From: Metallumcola ferriviriculae
Lineage (GTDB): Bacteria; Bacillota; JADQBR01
Direction of reading: 5' to 3'
DNA length: 64,000 nucleotides
NCBI RefSeq assembly: GCF_035573695.1
Contig: NZ_CP121694.1
Span: 1,216,501 to 1,280,500, forward strand
Made by a program: the position numbers and the translations under genes
The notes under the pieces: model-generated
Told to the model about the DNA's origin: nothing
Database searches by the model: none
Seen by the model: the letters and a program-made list of their open reading frames with translations, nothing else
Shown here: positions 16,162 to 31,619 of the stretch, piece after piece
Layout: each line of letters starts with the position of its first letter
Position numbering within the stretch: the first letter of the stretch is position 1

Positions 16162-16554
16162 ATGAAGCTGTTGGAACTGATGGATTTATTTCCAAAAATC
16201 GTAGCTATAAACTATAACCCAGATGCGTTGGAAAAAGATATAAAAAAGGTGCTAATGTATGGAGAAGAAACGGAAACAGGGAGTGTTATTTTCTTAGAGG
16301 CCGGGAGACTTCCTTACTCTGGGGAAAATCTATCGTTTGATGATGTAGTTGCAATAGCAGTCTACTGCCGGGAAAAGTCAGTTATAGATGGTCAGATATT
16401 GGCTGCACTTTTGGCTGCAAATGTACAGTTGTTGATGTTACCTTCGGAAGTTAATTTTAATGTTTTATCATCTATTGTGAAAGGGCAATATGCTGGGCAA
16501 GATTTCGCAGCTCAGAAAGAAGAATGGTGGTATGATGAACTTTTAGCGTATTGA
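16162..16554 (+). CDS. Uncharacterised 130-aa cytoplasmic protein under a sigma-54 promoter
   Basis: Not recognised. It has a good ribosome site (CAGGGGGTGTTAGG) and normal codon usage. No signal peptide, membrane segment or cysteine cluster is seen; there is one Cys, in VAIAVYCREK. The pattern of alternating helices and strands (AINYNPDALEKDIKKVLMYG, SVIFLEAGRLPYSG, ILAALLAANVQLLMLP) slightly recalls ligand-binding N-terminal domains of PucR-type regulators, but this is too weak to call. It lies between proline dehydrogenase (divergent) and the ior operon and has its own -24/-12 promoter, so it is probably co-regulated with amino-acid oxidation. Confidence 0.75.
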   Translation: MKLLELMDLFPKIVAINYNPDALEKDIKKVLMYGEETETGSVIFLEAGRLPYSGENLSFDDVVAIAVYCREKSVIDGQILAALLAANVQLLMLPSEVNFNVLSSIVKGQYAGQDFAAQKEEWWYDELLAY

Positions 16555-17029: not shown

Positions 17030-18136
17030 TTGAAAGCTAGATACGGATCTATTGCATTAGGACAGGAAGTAATGGATCAGGGCTTATGCACGGGCTGCGG
17101 CCTCTGCGTGGGGATGTGCCCATACATTAAGTCAATTAATGAACGGGTGGCGGTAATTCACCCCTGTGGCAAGGAGGATGGCAACTGTTATAAGATTTGC
17201 CCTAAAACGCTCACTGATTGGGTAGAGATGGATAACCAAGTTTTTGGCGGTCGCCGGCAGGACCATATTTTGGGAAATTACCAGAAAATTCTGTTCGCTC
17301 GCACCAGGCAAGCGCATGTTCATGAAAAGGGGCAGTATGGCGGGGTGGCCACCAGCCTTCTATCTTTAGCGATTGAGAAAGGGCAGGTTGATGCTGCTGT
17401 AGCTACCGGGGGCCCGGCAGGGGAGATTCCAAAACCAACAGTGGCTCACAGCAGAGAGGAAGTTTTGGCCTGCGGCGGTTCCCATTATTCAGCCAGTCCA
17501 TCCATGGGCGCGGTTAATCAGGCCGTTAAAGAGGGAGCAGCCAGAGTAGCAGCTACAGGTCGCCCCTGCCAAGTGTTGGCGTTAAGAAAGATGCAGGCGC
17601 TGGACGGGGATAGCAGTCACAATCTTGCTGCGAATAAGGTAAATTTTATTGTCGGCCTCTTTTGTTTTTGGGCTTTGGACAGCGCTATTTATTCTTTTTT
17701 ATCCAAACAGGTGGGTGTCAAAGGGATACTCAAAGTGGACATTCTCGTTGACGGTATCGAAATTACTACATCTACAGGTAAAATAAAAATTCCCGTGGAT
17801 AAAGTGCGGCCCTATATCCGCAGTACCTGCCAGGAATGTTTTGACCCCACATCGGAATTTGCCGATGTATCTGTCGGTTCTACAGAGTATGACCCCGGTT
17901 GGAATACGCTGATCGTCAGAACCAAAAAAGGTGAGGAAATGGTGGATATGGCTGTTAACGAAGGAATTATTGAAACTAAGGCCTATCCGGAAGAACGACT
18001 GCCCATGCTTTATACCGCTGTACGCAATAAAAAACTGCGGGTGCTGCAGCAGAAGGAACAAAATACCGCGCGCTATTTACAATTGGACGATGAATACAAG
18101 CAGGGAATTATTGATCAGGGGGTGAGGAGAGTATGA
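17030..18136 (+). CDS. FrhB/FdhB-family (coenzyme F420 hydrogenase beta-like) iron-sulfur flavoprotein
   Basis: 368 aa, starting at TTG nine bases after AGGAGG. The N terminus carries a ferredoxin motif (CTGCGLCVGMCP). The FrhB-type core follows, with GQYGGVATSLLSLAIEKGQVDA, a cysteine in ATGRPCQVLALRKM and the STCQECFDPTSEFADVSVG block. Family members are flavin/Fe-S electron-transfer subunits of F420, formate, glutamate synthase or heterodisulfide-linked enzymes. The gene overlaps iorA by four bases, so it probably joins IorAB in a complex and routes its electrons; its actual partner is unknown. Confidence 0.85.
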   Translation: MKARYGSIALGQEVMDQGLCTGCGLCVGMCPYIKSINERVAVIHPCGKEDGNCYKICPKTLTDWVEMDNQVFGGRRQDHILGNYQKILFARTRQAHVHEKGQYGGVATSLLSLAIEKGQVDAAVATGGPAGEIPKPTVAHSREEVLACGGSHYSASPSMGAVNQAVKEGAARVAATGRPCQVLALRKMQALDGDSSHNLAANKVNFIVGLFCFWALDSAIYSFLSKQVGVKGILKVDILVDGIEITTSTGKIKIPVDKVRPYIRSTCQECFDPTSEFADVSVGSTEYDPGWNTLIVRTKKGEEMVDMAVNEGIIETKAYPEERLPMLYTAVRNKKLRVLQQKEQNTARYLQLDDEYKQGIIDQGVRRV

Positions 18137-20064
18137 GTTTCTTAAGCCTGCAGGTTAATGAAGTAGGTAAACAAGTGCTAATGACAGGTAATGAAGCGGT
18201 TGCTCGTGCCGCCATTGAGGCCGGAGTAAGTTACGCTTCGTCATACCCAGGGTCTCCATCCTCTGAGATTTTGGGAAACTTGGGTAAGCTGGCTAAGCAG
18301 CATAACCTATATGCAGAGTGGTCCACCAACGAAAAAGTGGCTCTGGAAGGAGCCGCCGCCGCCTCATTTGCCGGTGTACGGGCCATCTGTATTGTCAAAC
18401 CGGACGGGTTAAATGTTGCCTTCGATACCTTAAAAAGCTTGACGTCGTCAGGCACTAAAGGCGGACTGGTGCTGGTGGTTAGCGACGACCCATCTGCGCA
18501 CTCAAGCACCAACGAGGAGGATTCACGTTACCTGGAAAAAGTGGCGCACATGCCCATTTTGGAACCCAGCACTCCCCAGGAAGCCAAAGACATGACGGTC
18601 GCTGCATTTGATTTATCGGAAAAGGTCAAGCTGCCAGTCTGTATTCGCTCGGTAACCAGGATATGTCACGCCAGTGGCAACGTAACCATTGGGCCGGTTA
18701 ATAAATCCATTAAGCAGCCTGTAATGGGTCCCGAGGACCGGTTCGTTACCAACATTTTATTCCATGCTGTCCAGGAGAAGAAGTTAGCCATGCTGGCACA
18801 GCTGGCGGAACAATGGCCCTTTAACCGTTATCAGGGCCCGGAGAATGCAAGAACCCTGATAATCACGGCGGGACCGGGCTTCGTCTATGCCCAAGAGGCT
18901 CTATCGGTGTTGGGTGTTGAAGAACAGGTGGGCATTCTCAAATTGGGTATTTCCTGGCCCCTTCCCGAAAATTTTATTGTCAATCATCTTGAGCATGCTG
19001 ATCAGGTAATTTTTTTAGAAGAAATAGAGCCTTTTAATGAAGAAAATATCATGCGTTTGGCGGCGCACCGGCTGGAGGAAGTTTATCCCATTAAGTTTTA
19101 CGGGCAAAAGTCGGGGCATGTTTCCGGTCAATTGGGACCGGGTTTAGGCGAAATAAATCCAGACACGGTAATCAGGGCATTAGCGGGCATTCTCAATCTT
19201 AGCTATACGGCCCAACCTAAGGGCTACGGTCAAGAGGCAGCCAGTCTGGTGCAAAATGTACCAGAACGAGAATTGGCTTTCTGCGCCGGCTGTCCTCATA
19301 GAGCTTCTTTCTGGGCAGTCAAATCGGCATTGGCCATAAATGGCAGAAATGGTGTCGTTATGGGCGACATCGGCTGTTATACCATGGGGCTGCTCAGAAC
19401 CGGATATAAGCTGCTTCAAGCGGTATTGGCCATGGGCTCCGGTGTAGGCCTTGCTCACGGTTTGGGTAAGTTGGACCGGTTTGGTTTTGAACAACCCGTT
19501 GTCGCCATGGTCGGCGATTCTACTTTTTATCATGCCGCCATACCCGCTCTGATTAACGCCAAATACAACAAATCCAATTTCCTGCTGGTAGTGTTGGATA
19601 ATGAGACCACGGCAATGACCGGGCATCAACCGCATCCGGGTTTGGGGCTAAATGCTATGGGGGATGAAACTGAACATATGCCCATTGAGAAGGTGGTAAA
19701 TGGTCTCGGGCTGCCGGTAGAAGTATACGACCCTTATGATGTGGATGGAACGACAAAGATGGTTTTTGATATGCTGCAGGAACAAGGGACCAAAGTATTG
19801 GTGCTGCGCCGTACCTGCGCATTGGTAACAGCGAAAAAAGAAACCAAGCCTAAAGTCTATGTGGACCAGAAGCTTTGTATCGGTGATGAATGCGGTTGTA
19901 ATCGCTTCTGCAGTCGAACCTTTGCCTGCCCGGCGAGTATATGGGACAAGAAGGCACAGAAGGCAATTATTGATGAAGCAGTATGCAACCGCTGCGGAGT
20001 CTGCGTCAGCCTTTGTCCACAAAACGCGATAAAACTGGAGGGGGTTGAAGCCGGTGAGTACTAG
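18133..20064 (+). CDS. iorA: Indolepyruvate:ferredoxin oxidoreductase alpha subunit
   Basis: 643 aa. N-terminal pyruvate-oxidoreductase fold (LMTGNEAVARAAIEAGVSYASSYPGSPSSEI), C-terminal TPP-binding half (VMGDIGCYTMG, MVGDSTFYHA) and a terminal two-cluster ferredoxin region (CIGDECGCNRFC; CNRCGVCVSLCPQNA). With IorB it converts aryl- or branched 2-oxo acids to acyl-CoA and CO2 and reduces ferredoxin. The enzyme class acts after deamination of amino acids, which fits the island's transporter and dehydrogenases. Confidence 0.93.
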   Translation: MSFLSLQVNEVGKQVLMTGNEAVARAAIEAGVSYASSYPGSPSSEILGNLGKLAKQHNLYAEWSTNEKVALEGAAAASFAGVRAICIVKPDGLNVAFDTLKSLTSSGTKGGLVLVVSDDPSAHSSTNEEDSRYLEKVAHMPILEPSTPQEAKDMTVAAFDLSEKVKLPVCIRSVTRICHASGNVTIGPVNKSIKQPVMGPEDRFVTNILFHAVQEKKLAMLAQLAEQWPFNRYQGPENARTLIITAGPGFVYAQEALSVLGVEEQVGILKLGISWPLPENFIVNHLEHADQVIFLEEIEPFNEENIMRLAAHRLEEVYPIKFYGQKSGHVSGQLGPGLGEINPDTVIRALAGILNLSYTAQPKGYGQEAASLVQNVPERELAFCAGCPHRASFWAVKSALAINGRNGVVMGDIGCYTMGLLRTGYKLLQAVLAMGSGVGLAHGLGKLDRFGFEQPVVAMVGDSTFYHAAIPALINAKYNKSNFLLVVLDNETTAMTGHQPHPGLGLNAMGDETEHMPIEKVVNGLGLPVEVYDPYDVDGTTKMVFDMLQEQGTKVLVLRRTCALVTAKKETKPKVYVDQKLCIGDECGCNRFCSRTFACPASIWDKKAQKAIIDEAVCNRCGVCVSLCPQNAIKLEGVEAGEY

Positions 20065-20668
20065 AGAATGCAACATTATTGTCACGGGTGTCGGCGGACA
20101 GGGTAATGTATTGGCCTCGCAAATAATTGCCACTGCGGCTGTGGGCAGCGGCTGTCAGGTGGCAGTAGGAGAGACGTACGGCGCGTCGCAAAGGGGGGGC
20201 TCGGTAATGAGCCACATACGGGTTTCATCCGATACAAATAAAGGGCCGCTTATTCCTAAGGGACAGGCGGATGTGGTGCTCAGCTTCGAACCTGTTGAGG
20301 CACTACGCGTGCTGCAAACTTATGGTCAAGATAGCACTACGGTTATAACCAACCTTCGCCCCAACTATCCGTTGAGCGTGCTGGTTGAGGAACAGGTATA
20401 TCCAGAGGTTGAGGATGTATTGACAGCCATTGACAGTATGTCAAGTCAATTGGTCACGGTAGAAGCTACCCAATTAGCTTTAGATGCCGGTTCGGCGGTG
20501 GCGGCCAATATGGTGATGACCGGTGCTTTTGCCGGCTGCGGTATTTTGGATATACCAGAGAGTACTTACCTAGAGGTTATTCGCGGTCTCTTTTCGGGTG
20601 AGGCACTAGTCCTTAATGAAAGGGCCTTCACTTTAGGAATCGGGGTTGCGGCGGTGAACAGTAAATAA
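20054..20668 (+). CDS. iorB: Indolepyruvate:ferredoxin oxidoreductase beta subunit
   Basis: About 204 aa. GTG 20054 is chosen because GGAGGGG lies nine bases before it; the in-frame TTG at 20045 is too close to that site. It shows the IorB/gamma-POR fold signatures IIVTGVGGQGNVLASQI, GETYGASQRGGSVMSHIR and ADVVLSFEPVEALR. It overlaps iorA by 11 bases, so translation is coupled. Confidence 0.93.
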   Translation: MSTRECNIIVTGVGGQGNVLASQIIATAAVGSGCQVAVGETYGASQRGGSVMSHIRVSSDTNKGPLIPKGQADVVLSFEPVEALRVLQTYGQDSTTVITNLRPNYPLSVLVEEQVYPEVEDVLTAIDSMSSQLVTVEATQLALDAGSAVAANMVMTGAFAGCGILDIPESTYLEVIRGLFSGEALVLNERAFTLGIGVAAVNSK

Positions 20669-20988: not shown

Positions 20989-21375
20989 TTATTCCTTCCT
21001 GTTTAGCATCAGCGCTTCATAGGTTTCGATAATTTTTTCCACTGCCTTAGGGGGCAGTTCTTTGGACTTGAGCTTATGGGCCAGGATAATGTAATCCATA
21101 TTTTCACTGTTTAAAATAAAGTCTCTGATATGGTCAGGCAGGTGAGATGTAAGTTCTAATGGAGTGACCGTATCTTCTTCCAGGAAATACTGAGAAGACA
21201 CCCGCAGCGCTTTGGATAATTGTTGAATAGTTTTTACTGAAGCAGACTTTTGCTTTCCATTTATCAAATCACTGACAGTAGCTTTGGATAGCCCTGATAA
21301 CCGCACCAACTCTGCTTGGTTTAGATTTCTGACCGCCAATAAATGCCTTATTTTTTGTGCAAGATTATTGCTCAT
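20989..21375 (-). CDS. XRE/HipB-type transcriptional repressor
   Basis: 128 aa. An N-terminal helix-turn-helix occupies residues about 5-65 (LNQAELVRLSGLSKATVSDLINGK), followed by a short helical tail that may dimerise. The start follows GGGAGGG. It is divergent from the small-protein/formate dehydrogenase genes, and two palindromic operators lie between. It therefore probably represses itself and the formate dehydrogenase operon. Confidence 0.88.
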   Translation of the reverse strand: MSNNLAQKIRHLLAVRNLNQAELVRLSGLSKATVSDLINGKQKSASVKTIQQLSKALRVSSQYFLEEDTVTPLELTSHLPDHIRDFILNSENMDYIILAHKLKSKELPPKAVEKIIETYEALMLNRKE

Positions 21376-21419
21376 AGTTCTGCCCTCCCAACAAATTCCA
21401 GAGATTAAGTGACACCGAA

Positions 21420-21433
21420 TTCGGTATACCGAA
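21420..21433. promoter_or_regulatory. XRE operator 1
   Basis: TTCGGTATACCGAA is a perfect 14-bp palindrome between the divergent repressor and the small-protein gene. A TATAAT box (21436-21441) begins two bases downstream, so binding should block rightward transcription. Confidence 0.7.
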
Positions 21434-21481
21434 CATATAATGTACTAAAACATGCCAGAGGCACATTTGATGGCTGACTTG

Positions 21482-21495
21482 TTCGTTATGCCGAA
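21482..21495. promoter_or_regulatory. XRE operator 2
   Basis: TTCGTTATGCCGAA matches operator 1 at 12 of 14 positions, 62 bases downstream, in front of the small-protein gene. The pair supports cooperative autoregulation. Confidence 0.6.
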
Positions 21496-21549
21496 CACAA
21501 CTCTGGATCTAACAGCCCCCGGCGCAATTACGAAAGGGGGCTTTATGTG

Positions 21550-21741
21550 ATGTGCCCGTACGTGAGAAAAGGCCAAAATATTAACGGTTGGTACTATTAC
21601 TGCGATGCAGTGGCCATGGGTATTGTCCTAACAGCAGAGGAACTCATGAGTATCGGCTGCACTGACGAACAGCGAAAGATTTGCAAAATGCTCATGGAGC
21701 TTGCCGTAGGCACCGGCATAGTTCCACAACCTGCAGATTAA
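21550..21741 (+). CDS. Small four-cysteine protein, paralogous to the C-terminal domain of the next gene
   Basis: 63 aa; the ATG nine bases after AAGGGGG is preferred to the adjacent GTG at 21547. It has MC near the start, YYYC, then GCT and a later C, and ends in GTGIVPQP. The same pattern recurs in the second half of the following gene (NGWxYYC, LTAxEL, GCT, CKxLME, GTGIVPxP). The four conserved cysteines suggest a bound metal or Fe-S cluster. The family was not recognised. It lies directly upstream of the formate dehydrogenase genes, so a regulatory or accessory role is likely. Confidence 0.75.
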   Translation: MCPYVRKGQNINGWYYYCDAVAMGIVLTAEELMSIGCTDEQRKICKMLMELAVGTGIVPQPAD

Positions 21742-21819
21742 TCCTATTAATATTTATATGCAGACAGTGGTGATTTTGGCAAAGAAATTAACAATTTTTT
21801 AAAAAGCAGGCGATTAACT

Positions 21820-22239
21820 GTGTTAAACGGCAAGAAAATAAAGGCCTTGCGCAAAAAACGGGGTTTAACTTTGAGGCAGCTTTCCGAGTTAACCTGCGGT
21901 AAGGTGAGTATCAGCCGCCTATCAGAAATAGAAAACGGTAAAGTCGCTAACCCAACTAAAAAGACCATCCATGCCCTTGCCCTGGTACTGGGAGTTGCCG
22001 AATGGGAACTGTTTCTACATGATGAATTCCTAAAGGGGGATTTAAGAATGTGTATCCACCGACGTGAGTACATTACTATGAATGGTTGGGTGTATTATTG
22101 TGAGCTTGCTGCACTGGGCAAGCGACTTACAGCAGACGAACTAAAGAAATTGGGCTGTACAAAAGAAGACAGGACTAGGTGTAAGCAATTGATGGAATAC
22201 ACCTGCGGCACGGGTATTGTGCCTGAGCCCGAAGAATAG
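21820..22239 (+). CDS. XRE helix-turn-helix fused to the small four-cysteine domain
   Basis: 139 aa from a GTG with a poor ribosome site (GCAGG). Residues about 3-65 are an XRE HTH (LRQLSELTCGKVSISRLSEI). Residues about 77-139 repeat the preceding small protein, including its four Cys positions, with two more cysteines (RCK and YTC). The fusion suggests the cysteine domain is a sensor (redox, metal or Fe-S) that controls DNA binding. The formate dehydrogenase gene starts 33 bases downstream. Confidence 0.75.
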   Translation: MLNGKKIKALRKKRGLTLRQLSELTCGKVSISRLSEIENGKVANPTKKTIHALALVLGVAEWELFLHDEFLKGDLRMCIHRREYITMNGWVYYCELAALGKRLTADELKKLGCTKEDRTRCKQLMEYTCGTGIVPEPEE

Positions 22240-22272: not shown

Positions 22273-24309
22273 ATGAAAGAAGTATTTACTATCTGTCCTT
22301 ACTGCGGCTGCGGCTGCGGTATGCACCTATTAGTGGATAAGGATGAGGTGGTGGGTGTAATACCCAGCAGCACCCACGCCGTCAACCAAGGCCAACTATG
22401 CGTAAAAGGCTGGCATGCACACGAGTTTGTCAATAGTCCCGATAGATTGCGCTCGCCGCTGATCAAAACTTCCCAGGGCTTTAAAGAAGTGCCTTGGGAA
22501 GCTGCCCTTAATAAAATTGCCTCAGAACTAAAAAGGATAACAGCACATGATGGGCCTGATGCAATAGGTTTTTTTAGCTCCGCAAAGTGCAGCAATGAAG
22601 AGAATTACCTGCTGATGAAGTTTGCCCGAGCAGCGGTAGGAACCAATAACATTGACCACTGCGCACGGTTGTGACACTCCGCTACCGTCGCCGGTCTGGC
22701 GGCTTCCTTTGGCAGTGGAGCCATGACTAATTCAATCGAAGAGATTGGGCAGGCAGATGTGATGCTAGTGACGGGGTCTAATACCACCGGACAGCATCCT
22801 CAGGTTGGTTCGCGCTTGATAGAAGCCGTAAATAATGGTGCCAAGCTGATTGTAGTAGATCCCAGGCGCATCCCGCTGGTGGAAACAGCTGCAGTCTATC
22901 TACAGCCCAAAGCAGGGACCAACGTGGCCTGGCTAAACGGCTTGGCCCATGTAATTATTAATGAAAACCTCTACAACCGTAAATTTGTCAGAGAATGTAC
23001 GGAAGGATTTGAGGAGTTATGCAAGATAGTAAAGCATTATACACCGCGCTATGTTGAGGAGATAACAGGCATACCTGCGTCAGAATTAATAGAGGCGGCA
23101 CGTCTTTACGCCGGTGCACACAGGGCTATGTTCTTTTATTGCATGGGAATTACCCAATTCACCTCGGGTGTGGATAACGTCAGGGCCTGCGCAAACCTGG
23201 CCATGCTGACGGGCAACATTGGCCGGCCGGGTACCGGGGTAAACCCGCTGCGAGGTCAAAATAATGTCCAAGGCGCCTGTGATATGGGGGCTTTGCCAAA
23301 TGTTCTTACAGGCTATCAAAAAGTCGAAGATCAAGAAGTAAGAAGAAAGTTCGAAAAAGCATGGCGTAAACCAATTCCGCCAAAACCGGGACTGACCATA
23401 ACGGAAATGGTAAACAGCGCTGCGGTTGGTGAGTTAAAATGCCTTTATATCATGGGCGAAAATCCCTTGGTCAGTGAGCCAAACCTGAACCATGTGTGCG
23501 GTGCATTCGATAATTTGGACTTCCTTGTTGTCCAAGACATCTTTATGACGGAAACTGCGGCAAAAGCAGATGTGGTTCTTCCGACCGCCTGCTTTGCTGA
23601 AAAAGACGGTACTTTCACCAATACCGATAGAAGAGTCCAAAGAATAAGACAGGCGGTGCATCCTAAGGGAAAAGCTGTAGAGGACTGGCGCATTATCTCG
23701 GCCTTGGCATGTAAGATGGGCTACATGATGGGCTACGAAAATCCTGAAGAGATTATGGAAGAAATATCCCTCTTGACCCCCTCCTACGGAGGCATAAATT
23801 ACTACCGTCTCCAGGAGAATGATTACCTGCAGTGGCCCTGCCCTGACAGCAGTCACCCCGGTACTCCTTTCTTGCATAAGAATAGTTTTGCCAGGGGCAG
23901 GGGACAATTTCACGCCGTTCATTACAAGCAACCCTGGGAAGTGCCTGACAATGACTATCCATTAATCCTGATCACCGGACGAACCGCTTTTCAATTTCAT
24001 ACCGCCAGCATGACCGGACGAACCACCATTACCAACAGGGAAACTCCAGAAGCGTTTGTGGAAATAAATCCTATCGATGCCCATCGTTATCGAATCAGAC
24101 ATAACCAGATGGTAAAGGTCAGCTCCCGCAGGGGTGATATCAGGTGTAAGGCAGCAATTAGCGACATCGTTACTAGTGGTTCAGTTTTTGTCCCATTTCA
24201 CTTTGCCACAGCTGCTGCCAATATGCTGACTGGGAGTTTTGTGGACCCGGTTGCAAAAATTCCCGAATATAAGAGTTGTGCTGTAAAAATTGAGAGGGTG
24301 GAGAGATGA
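22273..24309 (+). CDS. fdhF: Selenocysteine-containing molybdenum/tungsten formate dehydrogenase catalytic subunit
   Basis: A continuous gene read through an in-frame TGA at 22672-22674 (selenocysteine 134). Flanking residues DHCARL-U-HSATVAG match the formate dehydrogenase active site, and a SECIS-like hairpin follows. The start is the ATG after GGGGGAAGAACT. An N-terminal [4Fe-4S] motif (CPYCGCGCG plus a distal Cys in QLCVKGW) precedes molybdopterin-binding domains (GSNTTGQHP; GENPLVSEPN; ADVVLPTACFAEKDGTFTNTDRR) and a C-terminal dinucleotide-binding domain. About 678 aa, like FdhF. It oxidises formate or reduces CO2; the next two subunits should link it to NAD(P). Confidence 0.93.
22675..22720 (+). 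promoter_or_regulatory. Bacterial SECIS-like hairpin for UGA recoding
   Basis: Directly after the TGA, CTCCGC (22677-22682) pairs with GTGGAG (22715-22720). An inner CGCC/GGCG stem presents the apical loop GGTCT (22693-22697), about 18 bases from the codon. Loop sequence and distance resemble the E. coli fdhF element recognised by SelB. Confidence 0.75.
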
Positions 24310-25340
24310 CTTTTATTATTGCCAAGGAACGTATTACATCCTGGCTGCGCAAACTGATAAAGCAGGGGATATTGGTGGCCCCTGTTTCCTTAGCCAACGG
24401 GGATGTGATATTTAAAGAACTGTTGACACCCGATAATATCTTGCTGGAATATGACCAGCCTTTGTTTTCACCAAAGAACTTTTTCTTTCCGCAGCAGGAA
24501 ACATTATTTAAGTTTACTAAACAATCACCGCAAAACTTAGAAGCGATTTTTGATAAGTTTCCCAGAGTGTTTTTTGGCCTTCGCCCGTGTGATGTAAAAG
24601 CACTAAATCAGGCAGATGTATTCTTCTCCGAGTACTACCCAGACCCGTACTATTCTTGGAGGCGAAAACGGACATTAATAATTACCAATAGCTGTACTCA
24701 GCCGCTGTCTAGGTGCTTCTGCAATTTAATGGGCTGTAGTCCGTCATATCAACAGGGTTCCGATGTATTTCTTTTAGACATTGGTGACGTCTTTTTGGCT
24801 ACTGCCCATAGCGAAAAAGGAGAGAAAGCGATTGAAACCTTCCGTCACTTTTTCGCCGAAGCGGACATCTGCCAGCTAGAGTGTGCTAAGCATTTAGTAT
24901 CGGAAGCAGAGGCCACACTAGAGAACCATATACCAGCTTCAACAAAAATACCGGATATTACCCAAATGCCAAGTGCTTTTTGGGAGAAAATTAGTAAAAG
25001 GTGCTTTAGCTGCGGCAGCTGCTCGTATAACTGCCCCCTGTGTTTTTGTTATAACATCGTCGATCGAGCGGATGGAAGCTTCGGCAAACGGATTCGAACG
25101 TGGGACTCCTGTATCTTTGAAGGTTTTTCCCGCATGGCGGGCGGTCATAACCTTGACAAAAACAAAGCACAGCGTTTGCAGAAAAGGTTCACCCACAAGT
25201 TAAAACTATACCCGGAAAAGTATAACACCCCCGGATGTACCGGCTGCGGCCGCTGCAGCAGTGCCTGCTTGGGTAGGATCGGCATGAAAGAAGTGCTGCA
25301 AGCAATGGACAAGGAGGTGAGCGGTGATGCCCAAAAATGA
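24306..25340 (+). CDS. HydB/AsrA-like iron-sulfur subunit
   Basis: 344 aa overlapping the formate dehydrogenase stop by four bases. It contains the 4Fe-4S dicluster region CFSCGSCSYNCPLCFCYN and CTGCGRCSSACLGR plus an upstream cysteine-rich part (CTQPLSRCFCNLMGC). This is the pattern of sulfhydrogenase beta and anaerobic sulfite reductase A subunits. It should conduct electrons between the formate dehydrogenase and the flavin subunit encoded next. Confidence 0.87.
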   Translation: MTFIIAKERITSWLRKLIKQGILVAPVSLANGDVIFKELLTPDNILLEYDQPLFSPKNFFFPQQETLFKFTKQSPQNLEAIFDKFPRVFFGLRPCDVKALNQADVFFSEYYPDPYYSWRRKRTLIITNSCTQPLSRCFCNLMGCSPSYQQGSDVFLLDIGDVFLATAHSEKGEKAIETFRHFFAEADICQLECAKHLVSEAEATLENHIPASTKIPDITQMPSAFWEKISKRCFSCGSCSYNCPLCFCYNIVDRADGSFGKRIRTWDSCIFEGFSRMAGGHNLDKNKAQRLQKRFTHKLKLYPEKYNTPGCTGCGRCSSACLGRIGMKEVLQAMDKEVSGDAQK

Positions 25341-26151
25341 ACTCTTACCTCATCCGGCAGTGATAACGTCAATTCATAAAGAATCACCTGATATAAAGAC
25401 ATTTACCTTAAATTTTGTAAATGAGAGCCAGCAAAAACACTTCACTTATACACCGGGACAATTCATGGAGATATCCATCATGGGCGCAGGAGAAGCACCG
25501 ATATCAATTACCTCTTCCCCTACCCAACAGGGTATCCTTGAACTATGTATCCGGCAGGTAGGCACCTTGACCACATTACTGCACCAGCTGCAGCCTGGAA
25601 GTAAAGTGGGAATACGCGGACCCTACGGAAACGGTTTTCCGCTGGAAGAATTAAAAGGATACAACCTGCTTTTTATTGCCGGCGGTATTGGTTTGGCCCC
25701 GCTTCGCTCACTAATTAATTATGTTCTTTATCATCGCCAAGATTATGGTACAATTCACATCCTTTACGGAGCTAAGGCACCCGGTGAGTTAATCTTTTAC
25801 CGGGAACTTATCTGCTGGAATGGCAGGCAGAGTACCAATGTTCTTACCACAGTAGACCAAGGCAGTTATACATGGAAGGGAAATGTCGGTCTGGTAACAT
25901 CCCTATTAGATACACTTCGTGACATAGACCGGAATTTCAAAGCGATAGTCTGCGGACCGCCGGTAATGATACCTTTTGTGGTTAATGAGCTGCTAAAATT
26001 GGGCCTACCCGATGAGCATATCATCTCTACCCTAGAGAATCACATGAAATGCGGTATTGGCAAATGCGGTCACTGTTTAACCTGTGGTAAATACATTTGT
26101 ACCGACGGGCCGGTATTTAGTTATAAGGAGATGAAGTCTATGGGTTACTAA
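25327..26151 (+). CDS. HydG/AsrB-like FAD/NAD(P)-binding subunit
   Basis: 274 aa. ATG 25327 is eight bases after AGGAGGT; a GTG at 25324 is the alternative. Ferredoxin-NADP-reductase fold: FAD motif (SITSSP, after YTPGQFMEISI), NAD(P) loop (FIAGGIGLAPLRS, VCGPPVMIP) and a C-terminal [2Fe-2S] region (CGIGKCGHCLTCGKYIC). It is the usual partner of HydB/AsrA and makes the complex NAD(P)-reactive. It closes the formate dehydrogenase operon before a strong terminator. Confidence 0.9.
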   Translation: MPKNELLPHPAVITSIHKESPDIKTFTLNFVNESQQKHFTYTPGQFMEISIMGAGEAPISITSSPTQQGILELCIRQVGTLTTLLHQLQPGSKVGIRGPYGNGFPLEELKGYNLLFIAGGIGLAPLRSLINYVLYHRQDYGTIHILYGAKAPGELIFYRELICWNGRQSTNVLTTVDQGSYTWKGNVGLVTSLLDTLRDIDRNFKAIVCGPPVMIPFVVNELLKLGLPDEHIISTLENHMKCGIGKCGHCLTCGKYICTDGPVFSYKEMKSMGY

Positions 26152-26369: not shown

Positions 26370-28265
26370 ATGTCAAAGGTCAAGATTGGAGTAATTTCCA
26401 CCTATCCGGGGTTATCGGATTCCATCGCCAAGATGGCCGAGGGGATGGACGTGGAATTAATAATCAAAGAGGCTATTTTGGATGAGGGCGTGGCTACTGC
26501 CTACCAGATGGAGAAAGATGGAGTAGATGTAATAATCAGTCGGGGTGTAACGGGGAGGAAAATAAAAAAGGCACTATCCCTTCCTGTGGTTCTGATAGAA
26601 ATAACTTCATTCGATATTCTCCAAGCCCTTTATTCAGCCAAAAGTATGGGCCAGCGAATCGCTTTCCTGGGTCACAGGACCCAAGATTTTTGCGATTTTG
26701 AAAATATTATTAAAATCCTGGGTGCCGACGTGGTGCGTTATCCATATGGCGACACATTTGAAATGGAGGAGCAGGCTTCTAAACTATTAAGATCTGATGT
26801 GGATGTTTTGGTAAGTACCGGCCTATGTATTTATGAGATGGCTAAACGCTCAGGGATAAATGCCGTATTGGTACAGTCGGGATACGATGCCATTTACGGG
26901 TCAATTTATCGTGCGCTAGAATTAGTAAACGGTATTCGCAGAAATCAGGAACAATATAAGAAGTTCGGCTCCGTCCTAGAACTTTCCAACGACGGAATTT
27001 TAATAGTGGATAAGCACAACGAGATATCGTTTATGAATCCGGCGGCAGAAAATCTTTTGGATATGAATGCGGCCAAAATCGTAGGTAAATCATTGGACGA
27101 AATTCGGGAGTCAACTGTACTTGAGTCCTTAATCACTAATGTCAAAGGTGAAGAAGTTTTTAAAGAAGTTGGCAAAAGAAAATTTTTGGTCAACAGCATG
27201 TTACTAAATACTGGGGACGATTTATTGATATTGTTTCAAAGTGCAGACCGGATTCAAGTGATGGAACAAAATATTCGGCGGCAGCTATTTAAAAAAGGTT
27301 TATATGCCAAGCATTCTTTCAATAACATTATTGGCAATAGCGATGCTTTAAAAGAGGCGATAGAGGGGACGAAAAAGTTTGCCACCGCCAATGCCACGGT
27401 ACTGATCATGGGTGAGAGCGGCACCGGCAAAGAATTATTTGCCCAGAGTATTCATAATGAGAGTGATAGAAGGAAAGCGCCCTTTGTCGCAATTAACTGC
27501 GCGGCCCTGCCCGAAAGTCTATTGGAAAGTGAATTGTTTGGGTATGAAGAAGGTGCCTTCACCGGAGCCAAAAAGGGCGGCAAAATAGGTTTGTTTGAAA
27601 TGGCCCATGGGGGGACAATTTTCCTCGATGAGATTGGCGAAATGACACTGCCTGTCCAAGCCCGACTGCTGCGCGTGCTTCAAGAGCGGGAAATAATGAG
27701 GTTGGGCAGCGACAGGGTAATTCCGGTGGATGTAAGAATTATTGCTGCCACCAATTATGAATTGTACCAGGCGGTAGCGGAAGGAAATTTCCGCAATGAC
27801 CTTTACCATCGTCTGGAAGTATTAAATCTAGACATCCCTCCTTTACGAAATCGGAAAGAGGATATTAATTCACTGGCCAATTATTTTGTTGACCTTTATT
27901 CCTTTGAAGAAAAAAAGAAAGTGCCCCTGCTGACGAAGGGTGCTTTAGAGACTTTAAAGAAGTATGATTGGCCCGGCAACATAAGGGAGTTACAGAATAT
28001 TATTCATAAATACGTCTTATTATGGGAAGAGCAGCAACCCTGCGAGGAGCTCATAACTAAATTAATAAATGAAAAAATCAGAAAGACCTATAAAGTTAAG
28101 TCCATGGACGAAGATACCATAACGTTAAAAATCGGCAAAGTAGAAGACATGGAAAAACAGGTAATAGATTACTTATTGGCTACCGGAGCCAGTGTCAAAG
28201 ACATATCTGAAAAGATAGGCACCAGCCGGACGACTTTATGGCGGAAGACAAAAGCCGGTAATTAG
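26370..28265 (+). CDS. PrpR-like sigma-54-dependent activator
   Basis: 631 aa. A PrpR-type effector domain (about 1-190, starting KIGVISTYPGLSDSIAKM) is followed by PAS (about 200-310), an AAA+ core (about 325-565) with GESGTGKE, GAFTGA and IFLDEIGE, and a short C-terminal HTH (VKDISEKIGTSRTTLWRK). PrpR N-terminal domains sense acyl or carboxylate metabolites. Matching enhancer dyads and -24/-12 promoters stand before the TRAP transporter and the beta-oxidation operon, so this is their likely activator. Confidence 0.93.
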   Translation: MSKVKIGVISTYPGLSDSIAKMAEGMDVELIIKEAILDEGVATAYQMEKDGVDVIISRGVTGRKIKKALSLPVVLIEITSFDILQALYSAKSMGQRIAFLGHRTQDFCDFENIIKILGADVVRYPYGDTFEMEEQASKLLRSDVDVLVSTGLCIYEMAKRSGINAVLVQSGYDAIYGSIYRALELVNGIRRNQEQYKKFGSVLELSNDGILIVDKHNEISFMNPAAENLLDMNAAKIVGKSLDEIRESTVLESLITNVKGEEVFKEVGKRKFLVNSMLLNTGDDLLILFQSADRIQVMEQNIRRQLFKKGLYAKHSFNNIIGNSDALKEAIEGTKKFATANATVLIMGESGTGKELFAQSIHNESDRRKAPFVAINCAALPESLLESELFGYEEGAFTGAKKGGKIGLFEMAHGGTIFLDEIGEMTLPVQARLLRVLQEREIMRLGSDRVIPVDVRIIAATNYELYQAVAEGNFRNDLYHRLEVLNLDIPPLRNRKEDINSLANYFVDLYSFEEKKKVPLLTKGALETLKKYDWPGNIRELQNIIHKYVLLWEEQQPCEELITKLINEKIRKTYKVKSMDEDTITLKIGKVEDMEKQVIDYLLATGASVKDISEKIGTSRTTLWRKTKAGN

Positions 28266-28521: not shown

Positions 28522-29556
28522 ATGAAAAAAAAGAGAAGTCGTATCATATTATTAATATGTGTATTTGCTTTGGTTAGTTTGGTTGCCGGTTGCGGCGGTG
28601 GAGAAGGTTCTGCGCAGCTGCAAAACTTAAAATTCTTATCAGGTCCTACAGGGACAACCTGGTATTCTCAAGCCTCGGCTTTTGCGGGGATAGCTTCTAA
28701 AGACATGGGTACTACTGTAGATGTTTTAACTGGTTCAGCTATTAGTAATGTTATTCAAGTAGAAAACGGTAAAGCTGACATGGGTCTGACATTTGCATCT
28801 TACTTACCGGCTATGGCCAATGGTGAAGTAGTGGCCGAGATCGGCGATAAAGCATATTTTAGTGAACCAGTGAAAAATGTAAACACGCTGTTTAACTCAA
28901 CCACAGCAGCGTACGTTTTTCTAGTAAGTGCGGATTCCCCGTATCAGACGGTATCTGATTTAAAGGACCAGCCCATTAAATATGTGACATATCCCGTAGG
29001 TTTTACTGCCCGTTTTGTACCGGAGCAAATTCTCGCGGCACACGGTATCACCTATGACAACATCGAAGCAGCAGGCGGCAAGGTTGATATCGTTGGTAAG
29101 TATAAGGAAGCATGCGATCTTCTGGCAAAGGGCCAAACTGATGTTATCGCCTATACTATGGCGGTAAATGCTCAGTCAGCTGCCTTGGCTGAATTAGAGT
29201 CACAAAACGAATTTAGAATATTGAAGCTTGACCAGGATGCAGTGGAAAAGGTTACGAAAGAGCTGCCGCTGGTAGTAGCTACAGTGCCTAAGGGACTGCA
29301 TACCAGTATTAAAGAAGATGTAGATGTAATGGCCGATATCACTACTTGGGTAGTACGGGCCGATATGCCGGACGAAACTGTAACAAAAATTTTAGATGCT
29401 GTCATCGCTAACATGGATACCATGGCTCAAGTGGGCAACAGCGAATTTAAGGGCTTCACTGCCAAGGAATTAAGCAGACTGTACGGAAAAGGTTCGCAGA
29501 TTCCTTTCCATCCAGCAGCTGTCGAGTACTTCAAGGAAAAAGGAGCAATCCAATAA
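28522..29556 (+). CDS. TAXI-family TRAP transporter solute-binding lipoprotein
   Basis: 344 aa with a lipoprotein signal (basic N terminus, hydrophobic run, LVAGC). The mature sequence begins in the TAXI pattern (FLSGPTGTTWYSQASAFAGI) and continues with GKADMGLTF and DVIAYTMAVNAQS. It binds a carboxylate or amino acid outside the cell for the fused permease encoded next. It is the first gene after a sigma-54 promoter. The substrate is unknown; a fatty or organic acid would suit the beta-oxidation operon. Confidence 0.9.
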   Translation: MKKKRSRIILLICVFALVSLVAGCGGGEGSAQLQNLKFLSGPTGTTWYSQASAFAGIASKDMGTTVDVLTGSAISNVIQVENGKADMGLTFASYLPAMANGEVVAEIGDKAYFSEPVKNVNTLFNSTTAAYVFLVSADSPYQTVSDLKDQPIKYVTYPVGFTARFVPEQILAAHGITYDNIEAAGGKVDIVGKYKEACDLLAKGQTDVIAYTMAVNAQSAALAELESQNEFRILKLDQDAVEKVTKELPLVVATVPKGLHTSIKEDVDVMADITTWVVRADMPDETVTKILDAVIANMDTMAQVGNSEFKGFTAKELSRLYGKGSQIPFHPAAVEYFKEKGAIQ

Positions 29557-29717: not shown

Positions 29718-31619
29718 ATGAACAGGAATCTACAAGGTTCAGTGGGAAAGATAATTGATATCTTAGCAGTATTATTAACACTATTTGCCCTGCAAATAAT
29801 AGTTGTCGGCCCAACCCTAGGATACAATGTATCTTTGGCAATATTCTTGGCTATTGCATTGCCCATGACGTTCTTTATTTATGCCGGCGGTCATAGCGAA
29901 TTCATGAAAAAGATCAATGTGGTTGACATGATTTTTGCTGTGCTTTCCGTGGTATCAATTGGATATTTGGTGGTCAGGGCCAACTATATTTTAACCAGGG
30001 TTGAGTACGTATCTCCTCTTTCAATAACTGATTATATTATGGGAATTATAGCCATAATAGCTGTTTTGGAGGCTACACGCCGAGCTATTGGTTTACCCAT
30101 GTCAGTTGTCGTATTAGTCTTATTTGGCTATGCAAGCTTCGGACAGTATTTACCGGCGCCCTTTGGCCATGCCGGGTTCACTTTGGATTGGATCATCGAT
30201 ACCATGTATCTGACTTCCCGAGGTATCTTTGGCAGTCCCTTATGGGTAGTAATCACTCTGGCATTTCCCTTTATATTTTACGGCGTAATTTTGGAACAGA
30301 TGGGGGTATTGAAATCCTTTTTGGATTTCGCCAACAGACTGTTTGGTAAATCTCAAGGTGCGCCTGCTAAGACGGCAATTGTAGCCGGAACATTTATGGG
30401 GATGGCCAGTGGGATGCCCATGTCCACAACCTACCTAATCGGATTTCCTACAATCCCGGAAATGAAAAAGGTGGGCTACCCTGGCAGGACGGCGGGGGCG
30501 ATAGCTGCGGTAGTAGGTACTGCAGCACAATTAATGCCGCCCATGTTGGGTGTAGCAGCTTTTATTGTGGCTCAATATATGGGAGTGCCATACATTAAAG
30601 TTGCCCAATACACTTTGCTGCCCGCCTTGCTTTTCTATTTCGTATTTTTTATTACAGTGCATTTGGAATCGAAAAGGTTAGACATCAAAGCTGTCGAGAC
30701 GCCTAAGGTCCCTTATAAAGATATCTTGTTAGGCGGCTTCCATATCTTCATCATAACCATTGCTATATTGCTCTATTTCCTGCTCAAGTTTTACCCGGTT
30801 GGGTTGGCCGCGTTCTACGCTTGTACGGTGGCGCTGTTATTCGGGGTGGCACGGAAAAAAGACAGGCTGACCTTAAAGGGTTTATATGCGATATTTGCTA
30901 AGACAGGAAAAACTTCGGTTTATATTGCCATTGCCTGTGCATCAGCTGGTATCATCACTGGCTTTTTGGTGGAGACAGGGTTAAACCTAAAATTTGCTAA
31001 CATGGTAATCACTTTCGGTCAAAACAGTCTCTTTCTAGCCTTAGTTTTATCAGCGATAGCCATCTTGGTGATGAGTATGGGGATGCCTTCTATCCCTGCG
31101 TATATCACCAGTATCGCAATTTTTGGTCCGGCTTTGATTAGACTTGGAGTAATTCCAGAGGTTGCTCATATTTTCTCCTTTTATTATGCAACTTTATATT
31201 CCATTACTCCTCCCGTAGCTTTTGCTTCTTATGCCGGGGCCCAAATCGCCGGTGAAGACCCGATGAAGACCGGCCTTGTAGCAGTAAGGCTGGGGATTAT
31301 GACTTATATCATTCCCTTTGTATTTGCCTATTCCCCGGCCTACTTGATGATTCCGGAATATTGGAATGCGTATGAGGTGTTCAGACTACTGGTCTTTGTA
31401 TTGCCCGGCTTAGTAGTATTTGCTGCCGGTATCAGCGGCTATCTCACCAGGACCCTTACCTCCTTGGAACGGTCCATGGCAGTTGCGGGCGGTTTAATGC
31501 TATTGCTTCCATTCAGCATCCTTGATTATATAGGATTTGTCTTAATGGTAGTGGTATTTTTTAAGCAAGGGGTATTCACCATGCTTTTCAACCGCAAAAA
31601 GCAGGAAAGTGCAGCATAG
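29718..31619 (+). CDS. TRAP transporter fused permease (DctQ-DctM, TAXI type)
   Basis: 633-aa polytopic membrane protein. The N-terminal four-helix DctQ-like part (about 1-160) is fused to the large DctM-like part with MGMASGMPMSTTYLIGFPTI and VMSMGMPSIPAYITSI repeats. It uses an ion gradient to import the ligand delivered by the TAXI protein. The ATG follows GGTGGAGGG. A strong terminator follows the gene. Confidence 0.92.
   Translation: MNRNLQGSVGKIIDILAVLLTLFALQIIVVGPTLGYNVSLAIFLAIALPMTFFIYAGGHSEFMKKINVVDMIFAVLSVVSIGYLVVRANYILTRVEYVSPLSITDYIMGIIAIIAVLEATRRAIGLPMSVVVLVLFGYASFGQYLPAPFGHAGFTLDWIIDTMYLTSRGIFGSPLWVVITLAFPFIFYGVILEQMGVLKSFLDFANRLFGKSQGAPAKTAIVAGTFMGMASGMPMSTTYLIGFPTIPEMKKVGYPGRTAGAIAAVVGTAAQLMPPMLGVAAFIVAQYMGVPYIKVAQYTLLPALLFYFVFFITVHLESKRLDIKAVETPKVPYKDILLGGFHIFIITIAILLYFLLKFYPVGLAAFYACTVALLFGVARKKDRLTLKGLYAIFAKTGKTSVYIAIACASAGIITGFLVETGLNLKFANMVITFGQNSLFLALVLSAIAILVMSMGMPSIPAYITSIAIFGPALIRLGVIPEVAHIFSFYYATLYSITPPVAFASYAGAQIAGEDPMKTGLVAVRLGIMTYIIPFVFAYSPAYLMIPEYWNAYEVFRLLVFVLPGLVVFAAGISGYLTRTLTSLERSMAVAGGLMLLLPFSILDYIGFVLMVVVFFKQGVFTMLFNRKKQESAA

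Follow-up and report, generated by a model that had tools for sequence, protein, structure and literature searches.

What does a 63-residue protein with four cysteines do when it is encoded directly upstream of a DNA-binding protein that carries a second copy of it, with a formate dehydrogenase gene behind both? The question is raised by the window, the whole 64,000-nucleotide stretch of Metallumcola ferriviriculae DNA analysed here, in which an earlier note, made from the sequence alone, had described the two proteins as members of a family it did not recognise. The family is indeed unnamed in the libraries searched, and the main result of this analysis is that in other lineages the same domain is fused to FNT formate channels. 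We estimate at about one half the probability that the domain acts in the cytoplasm as a regulatory module of formate metabolism, likely binding an Fe-S cluster or another metal, which is carried by an XRE-type protein or by an FNT channel and is partnered by the free copy. In syntrophic and acetogenic anaerobes, the exchange of formate plays a central part. To our knowledge, the way in which anaerobes sense formate or redox state to adjust their formate channels and dehydrogenases is poorly understood.

Free and HTH-fused copies in the window

The locus is organised as follows (window coordinates).

20989–21375, reverse strand: divergent XRE-type regulator of 128 residues, candidate binder of the palindromes (PF01381, E 1.9e-9; PF13443)
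21419–21434, no strand: operator-like palindrome 1, ATTCGGTATACCGAAC, starting 17 nt before TATAAT
21436–21441, forward strand: TATAAT, probable -10 box of the promoter of the stand-alone gene, at a constant distance from palindrome 1 in four of four loci
21481–21496, no strand: operator-like palindrome 2, GTTCGTTATGCCGAAC, starting 62 bp downstream of palindrome 1
21550–21741, forward strand: stand-alone four-cysteine domain protein of 63 residues (C2, C18, C37, C45), in the same place in four of four HTH-type loci
21820–22239, forward strand: XRE-type HTH (residues ~4–65; PF01381, E 3.3e-12) fused to the four-cysteine domain (residues 77–139, 22048–22236)
22273–24309, forward strand: formate dehydrogenase alpha subunit (TIGR01591, 900 bits), with an in-frame TGA at 22672–22674 read as selenocysteine (U134)
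24306–25340, forward strand: 4Fe-4S dicluster subunit of the formate dehydrogenase operon (PF17179 Fer4_22, E 2e-29), a neighbour in four of four HTH-type loci
25327–26151, forward strand: FAD/NAD-binding oxidoreductase with a DHODB-type Fe-S domain (PF00175, PF10418, PF00970), present in three of four HTH-type loci

The tandem of a stand-alone and an HTH-fused paralogue holds as the earlier note had described it. The stand-alone frame begins with ATG and has an in-frame GTG one codon before it; the HTH-fused frame, 139 residues long, begins with GTG. The BLASTP match between the two proteins is ungapped and spans residues 1–63 of the stand-alone copy and 77–139 of the fused one, with 33 of 63 residues identical (52%, 73.9 bits), and the two domains score 181 in local alignment, while the best of 1000 composition-preserving shuffles reaches 48. 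In the 3.72-Mb, one-contig genome tblastn finds exactly these two copies of the domain. The HTH_3 domain of the fused protein scores 46.7 bits with PF01381, for which the Pfam cut-off is 23. The next gene is that of the formate dehydrogenase alpha subunit, which bears out the claim that the pair precedes such an enzyme.

The HTH-fused protein has orthologues in three further genomes, so that this form is present in four: the window, G013 (a Thermincola ferriacetica MAG), G097 and G059. The gene order is the same in all four loci and consists of the divergent XRE gene, the free copy, the HTH-fused copy, the selenocysteine FdhA and the Fe-S protein. All four HTH-fused proteins have a fifth cysteine in the domain (C129 in the window protein). 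The TGA codon of fdhA lies in the same codon context (CARL*HS) in all four loci, as expected for selenocysteine. The Rfam scan of the window gave no matches and thus no SECIS family support, and single-sequence RNA folds 3' of the TGA are no better than those of shuffles in three of the four loci. Gene callers would split fdhA at this TGA (CARL-TGA-HS).

The wider surroundings are varied. A PrpR_N and sigma-54 activator (26370–28265) lies immediately 3' of the formate dehydrogenase operon. Next come an NMT1/TAXI-type binding protein (28522–29556) and a large membrane protein (29718–31619) that, judged from its sequence, resembles a fused TRAP permease. On the other side, a 130-residue open reading frame (16162–16554) matches nothing in Pfam and lies upstream of an FrhB/FdhB-like protein (17072–18136), and positions 18133–20668 hold what we take to be indolepyruvate oxidoreductase genes.

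Both 16-bp palindromes sit in the gap between the divergent genes (21376–21549). They are the only matches in the whole 3.72-Mb genome when one mismatch at most is allowed, and the reversed control pattern has five matches per strand in the same search. With the pattern loosened to accept ATTCG and TGAAC ends, each of the three other HTH-type loci has two such palindromes in the same divergent gap. The start-to-start distance between them is 55 bp in G059 and 62 bp in each of the other loci, and the first palindrome starts 17 nt before the start of TATAAT in all four. The divergent XRE gene is itself present in four of four loci (53–64% identity to the window copy), and its presumed recognition helix (SKATxSxLIN) is nearly identical across them, while that of the HTH-fused protein is more variable. 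Because its recognition helix varies less, we lean to the divergent XRE protein as the one by which the palindromes may be bound, and not to the HTH-fused protein. Directly upstream of the stand-alone gene there is also a stem, AGCCCCC/GGGGGCT (21514–21542), with the likely Shine-Dalgarno sequence inside it; the stem is predicted to form, yet the region folds no better than shuffles. No similar stem was seen by eye in the Thermincola-type loci.

Extent, cysteines and predicted fold of the family

Profile searches covered 553 genomes (G000–G552), all of the phylum of the window, and found the domain in 48 of them. A profile made from a first alignment (A1) had matches in 20 of 398 genomes, of which two short and weak ones were then discarded (G083, E 0.002, 26 residues with an internal stop; G292, E 0.005, 22 residues). 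A profile from a second alignment (A2) found the domain in 32 of the 97 genomes belonging to the class of G349. For the classes of G197, G005 and G013 the counts were 9 of 20, 3 of 82 and 3 of 10 genomes, the class of G059 being a set identical to that of G013. Sequences of the loci were taken from all 48 genomes (the window, L033–L052 and L119–L153, the two discarded matches included); L153, a repeat of L044, was dropped, and L003 and L033, which hold one and the same contig (length 219541), were counted once. After exclusion of partial domains shorter than 54 residues, the set comprises 85 distinct complete domains: 40 stand-alone, 39 of FNT type (among them two contig-edge or frame-broken copies), four HTH-fused and two in one two-domain protein.

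No model in Pfam, NCBIfam, PHROGs or the PDB matches the domain, in agreement with the earlier description of the family as unrecognised, and sequence searches of the PDB gave nothing meaningful. The best Pfam match of the free copy, HycA (PF11046), has an E-value of 0.1 and 13.5 bits against a cut-off of 25 and is not a match. The weak matches to DUF2769 (0.054) and phrog_16837 (0.021) were treated as chance, as was an isolated one to NF041638 (E 0.0035 in one of 24 members). A phage or plasmid origin was considered and rejected, there being no match in plasmids, phages or viral contigs. A scan of the contigs of the whole collection with the single query P0001, which picks up close relatives only, returned one locus. 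In the literature searched at the level of titles and abstract openings, no mention of such a domain was found.

Conservation of the cysteines among homologues had been set beforehand as the test on which the family could fail, and all four are kept in 85 of 85 domains. C2, G13, C18, A22, G36, C37 and C45 are invariant, the spacing C-x15-C-x18-C-x7-C is identical throughout with no CxxC between the cysteines, and the conserved residues other than cysteines are G13, A22, G36, T38, R42, M49, G54 and P59. A CxxC knuckle is typical of zinc sites. Four invariant cysteines without it are more suggestive of an Fe-S cluster than of a zinc ribbon, and the Fe-S or metal role proposed in the earlier note is plausible on this pattern. 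The same cysteines could instead form disulfides upon oxidation and act as a thiol switch with no bound metal, which would also agree with the absence of CxxC; we consider this very improbable, as the protein is expected to reside in the reducing cytoplasm of anaerobes and the invariance of all four cysteines and of their spacing would fit a four-ligand metal site better than two disulfides.

The AlphaFold2 model of the free copy, built from four sequences, is mediocre (pLDDT 69, pTM 0.48). It contains a β-hairpin, with C2 before it and C18 at its end, followed by helices. In the model of the HTH protein the domain is folded differently, with the hairpin region drawn as helices at low confidence. 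A Foldseek search with the free-copy model gave no fold match; its best E-value, 1.0, carries no meaning for a model of pTM 0.48. The hairpin part invites comparison with SPASM/Twitch domains, whose SPASM motif is given as CX9-15GX4C (PMC6231123). The C-x10-G-x4-C of the domain falls within that motif and is likewise modelled around a β-hairpin with helices after it. The motif occurs in 85 of 85 domains but also in 10% of shuffled domains. Unlike SPASM/Twitch, the domain ends with a CX7C pair (85 of 85), has no downstream CX2C or CXC ligands and occurs alone or with an HTH or an FNT channel instead of a radical SAM domain. Membership was rejected, as hhalign gave a probability of 0.5% against 17 SPASM domains and none of 24 members matched SPASM in Pfam; Twitch serves as an analogy only.

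Fusion to FNT formate channels

FNT formate channels of two other classes, those of G349 and G197, carry the domain as a fusion at their N-terminus. The two fused proteins scanned match Form_Nir_trans (PF01226) above the cut-off, at 269–279 bits (E 3e-80 and 3e-83), and in the genome scans the FNT matches fall on the same frames as the fused domain. When four fused channels are aligned with FocA of E. coli, the residues T91 and H209, which PMC9380403 lists as pore residues of FocA, prove invariant. For 29 of the 32 fused FNT frames of the class of G349, the gene that follows downstream is a free copy, and the other three frames are second channels in FNT–free–FNT triplets. In the class of G197 none of seven FNT frames has an adjacent free copy; each of nine genomes has one FNT-type domain match, two of these being a contig-edge copy and a frame-broken copy.

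Across the class of G349, the domain and FNT occur together in 30 genomes; two have the domain only, eight have FNT only and 57 have neither (Fisher p 2e-15, with kinship ignored). The two domain-only genomes are G425, in which the FNT-type domain runs off the contig end (L152), and G426. The FNT frames of the eight FNT-only genomes are mostly 285–325 residues long, the exceptions being a fragment in G096 and a 355-residue frame in G436 (L193). The latter has a degenerate N-terminus in which about one of the four cysteines is recognisable, and G436 is devoid of the free copy as well. This single case of joint loss, of the domain on the channel and of the free copy, is compatible with a functional pair.

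The channel-fused and HTH-fused forms were not seen together in one genome, since the FNT scan of the four HTH-type genomes found no FNT. Three genomes of one genus (G005, G154 and G505) have the stand-alone form only; neither FdhA nor FNT was identified beside the lone free copy in G005 and G154, and in G505 the domain alone was read. Upstream of the orphan copies in G005 and G154 (L036, L037), GTGA-N6-TCAC-like repeats were noticed by eye. A further arrangement is found in G424, where one protein (L122, 1297–1809) consists of a tandem of two four-cysteine domains, the one resembling the FNT-fused type and the other the free type; the locus also encodes histidine kinase and response regulator relatives. 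The pairing of a stand-alone with a fused copy is thus recurrent, in four of four HTH-type loci and, within the class of G349, beside 29 of 32 fused channels, and not universal, given the nine class-of-G197 genomes without an adjacent free copy and the three genomes with a free copy only.

The tree of the 85 domains is built on 62 columns and leaves many forks open. It separates the FNT-fused domains from the others (support 99/98), joins the four HTH-fused domains in one group (99/91) and places the free copy of the window in a group made up of seven free copies (100/97). The two-domain protein is split by the tree, with one of its halves among the fused domains and the other among the free ones. 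From these groupings, the free and fused partners look like lineages that separated long ago and not like duplicates of recent, local origin.

Formate is the common theme of these contexts because the HTH form adjoins FdhA (four of four) and other forms are fused to FNT. There are two independent physical links to formate, that of the HTH-fused copy with FdhA and the FNT fusion. The earlier note had asked whether the genomic neighbours are molybdenum, tungsten or selenium enzymes; a shared theme did emerge from the profile search of neighbours, and it is not that one. Molybdenum, tungsten or selenium is out as the common factor, as most members are on or beside FNT formate channels. With formate as the sole theme common to both contexts, the domain might itself bind formate or a formate-derived species at or near a metal site, with the HTH protein and the channel responding to it. 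Such a direct ligand sensor is unlikely: no ligand pocket can be inferred, and the conserved residues other than cysteines are mostly structural in kind, R42 and T38 excepted.

The position of the domain on the channel also bears on its role. According to PMC11841067, the N-terminus of FocA gates formate translocation, and PflB binds the N-terminal helix of FocA, this binding being required for translocation. The docking of PflB there lends some weight to a different reading, in which the domain would be a structural adaptor, with zinc or Fe-S, that anchors the channel or the regulator to an enzyme making or using formate and senses nothing. Consistent with this, an alcohol dehydrogenase, a histidine kinase and a response regulator are encoded with most of the free copy/channel loci in the class of G349. 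Counted over 54 distinct fetched loci, which include other lineages and leave out the duplicate L153, relatives of iron-containing alcohol dehydrogenase (PF00465), which recur near class-of-G349 loci, are found in 26, those of the histidine kinase in 26 and those of the response regulator in 24 (one window ORF also matched by the response-regulator query is excluded). A docking role is nevertheless rather doubtful, as the DNA-binding form is ill-suited to pure tethering, unless the enzyme titrates a repressor, and the invariant cysteines lack the zinc-typical knuckle.

A proposed role and its relation to known systems

The reading as a regulatory module is preferred because the domain sits both at the gated N-terminus of a channel and on a DNA-binding protein beside a formate dehydrogenase. 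The four-cysteine domain is probably a switch that tunes formate handling in these anaerobes. Its four cysteines would most likely hold one Fe-S cluster or another metal, and the trigger would be the state of the cluster (redox, O2 or Fe-S supply) or a formate-linked signal. In the window, the XRE-borne domain and the free copy would together set the expression of the selenocysteine formate dehydrogenase operon, through a DNA target of the HTH-fused protein that we infer. In the other lineages, the N-terminal domain would open or close the FNT channel on the same signal. The free copy would probably form mixed oligomers with the fused domain and either compete with it or complete it; the sensor/antagonist relation put forward in the earlier note is a guess. 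A more specific version, in which an Fe-S sensor gates the FNT channel in some bacteria and controls the selenocysteine formate dehydrogenase operon in others, with the free copy as a diffusible, PII-like partner, is offered tentatively and as possible only. A compact domain that is exchanged between DNA-binding proteins and formate channels would provide a direct handle on formate regulation, and a protein of 63 residues could reveal whether FNT channels are gated by a built-in metal or Fe-S sensor.

Among known regulators, HycA (PF11046), the repressor of the hyc/hyp operons, resembles the present proteins as a formate-linked regulator by name only, its score being below the cut-off. FNR, IscR/Rrf2 and WhiB are Fe-S transcription regulators. 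The HTH-fused protein is like them in being a DNA-binding protein with few conserved cysteines in an anaerobic or redox-control setting; unlike them, its HTH is of XRE type and its domain has no library match. We know of no Fe-S regulator with the spacing C-x15-C-x18-C-x7-C.

The channel-borne form has different counterparts. PII–Amt fusions exist. In the GlnK (PII)–AmtB system, as outlined in PMC3831643, a small soluble regulator is encoded beside the channel, as is the free copy here beside the channel that it presumably controls, but that system has ammonium and nucleotide sites where this one has formate and four cysteines, and no sequence relation is claimed. The FocA/PflB system of E. 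coli is similar in that the passage of formate through an FNT channel is controlled from its N-terminus by a cytoplasmic element (PMC11841067). FocA itself has only a short N-terminal helix and is gated by a separate enzyme, whereas the present channels contain a four-cysteine domain of 60 residues as part of the protein and, in one class, have a free copy as the next gene.
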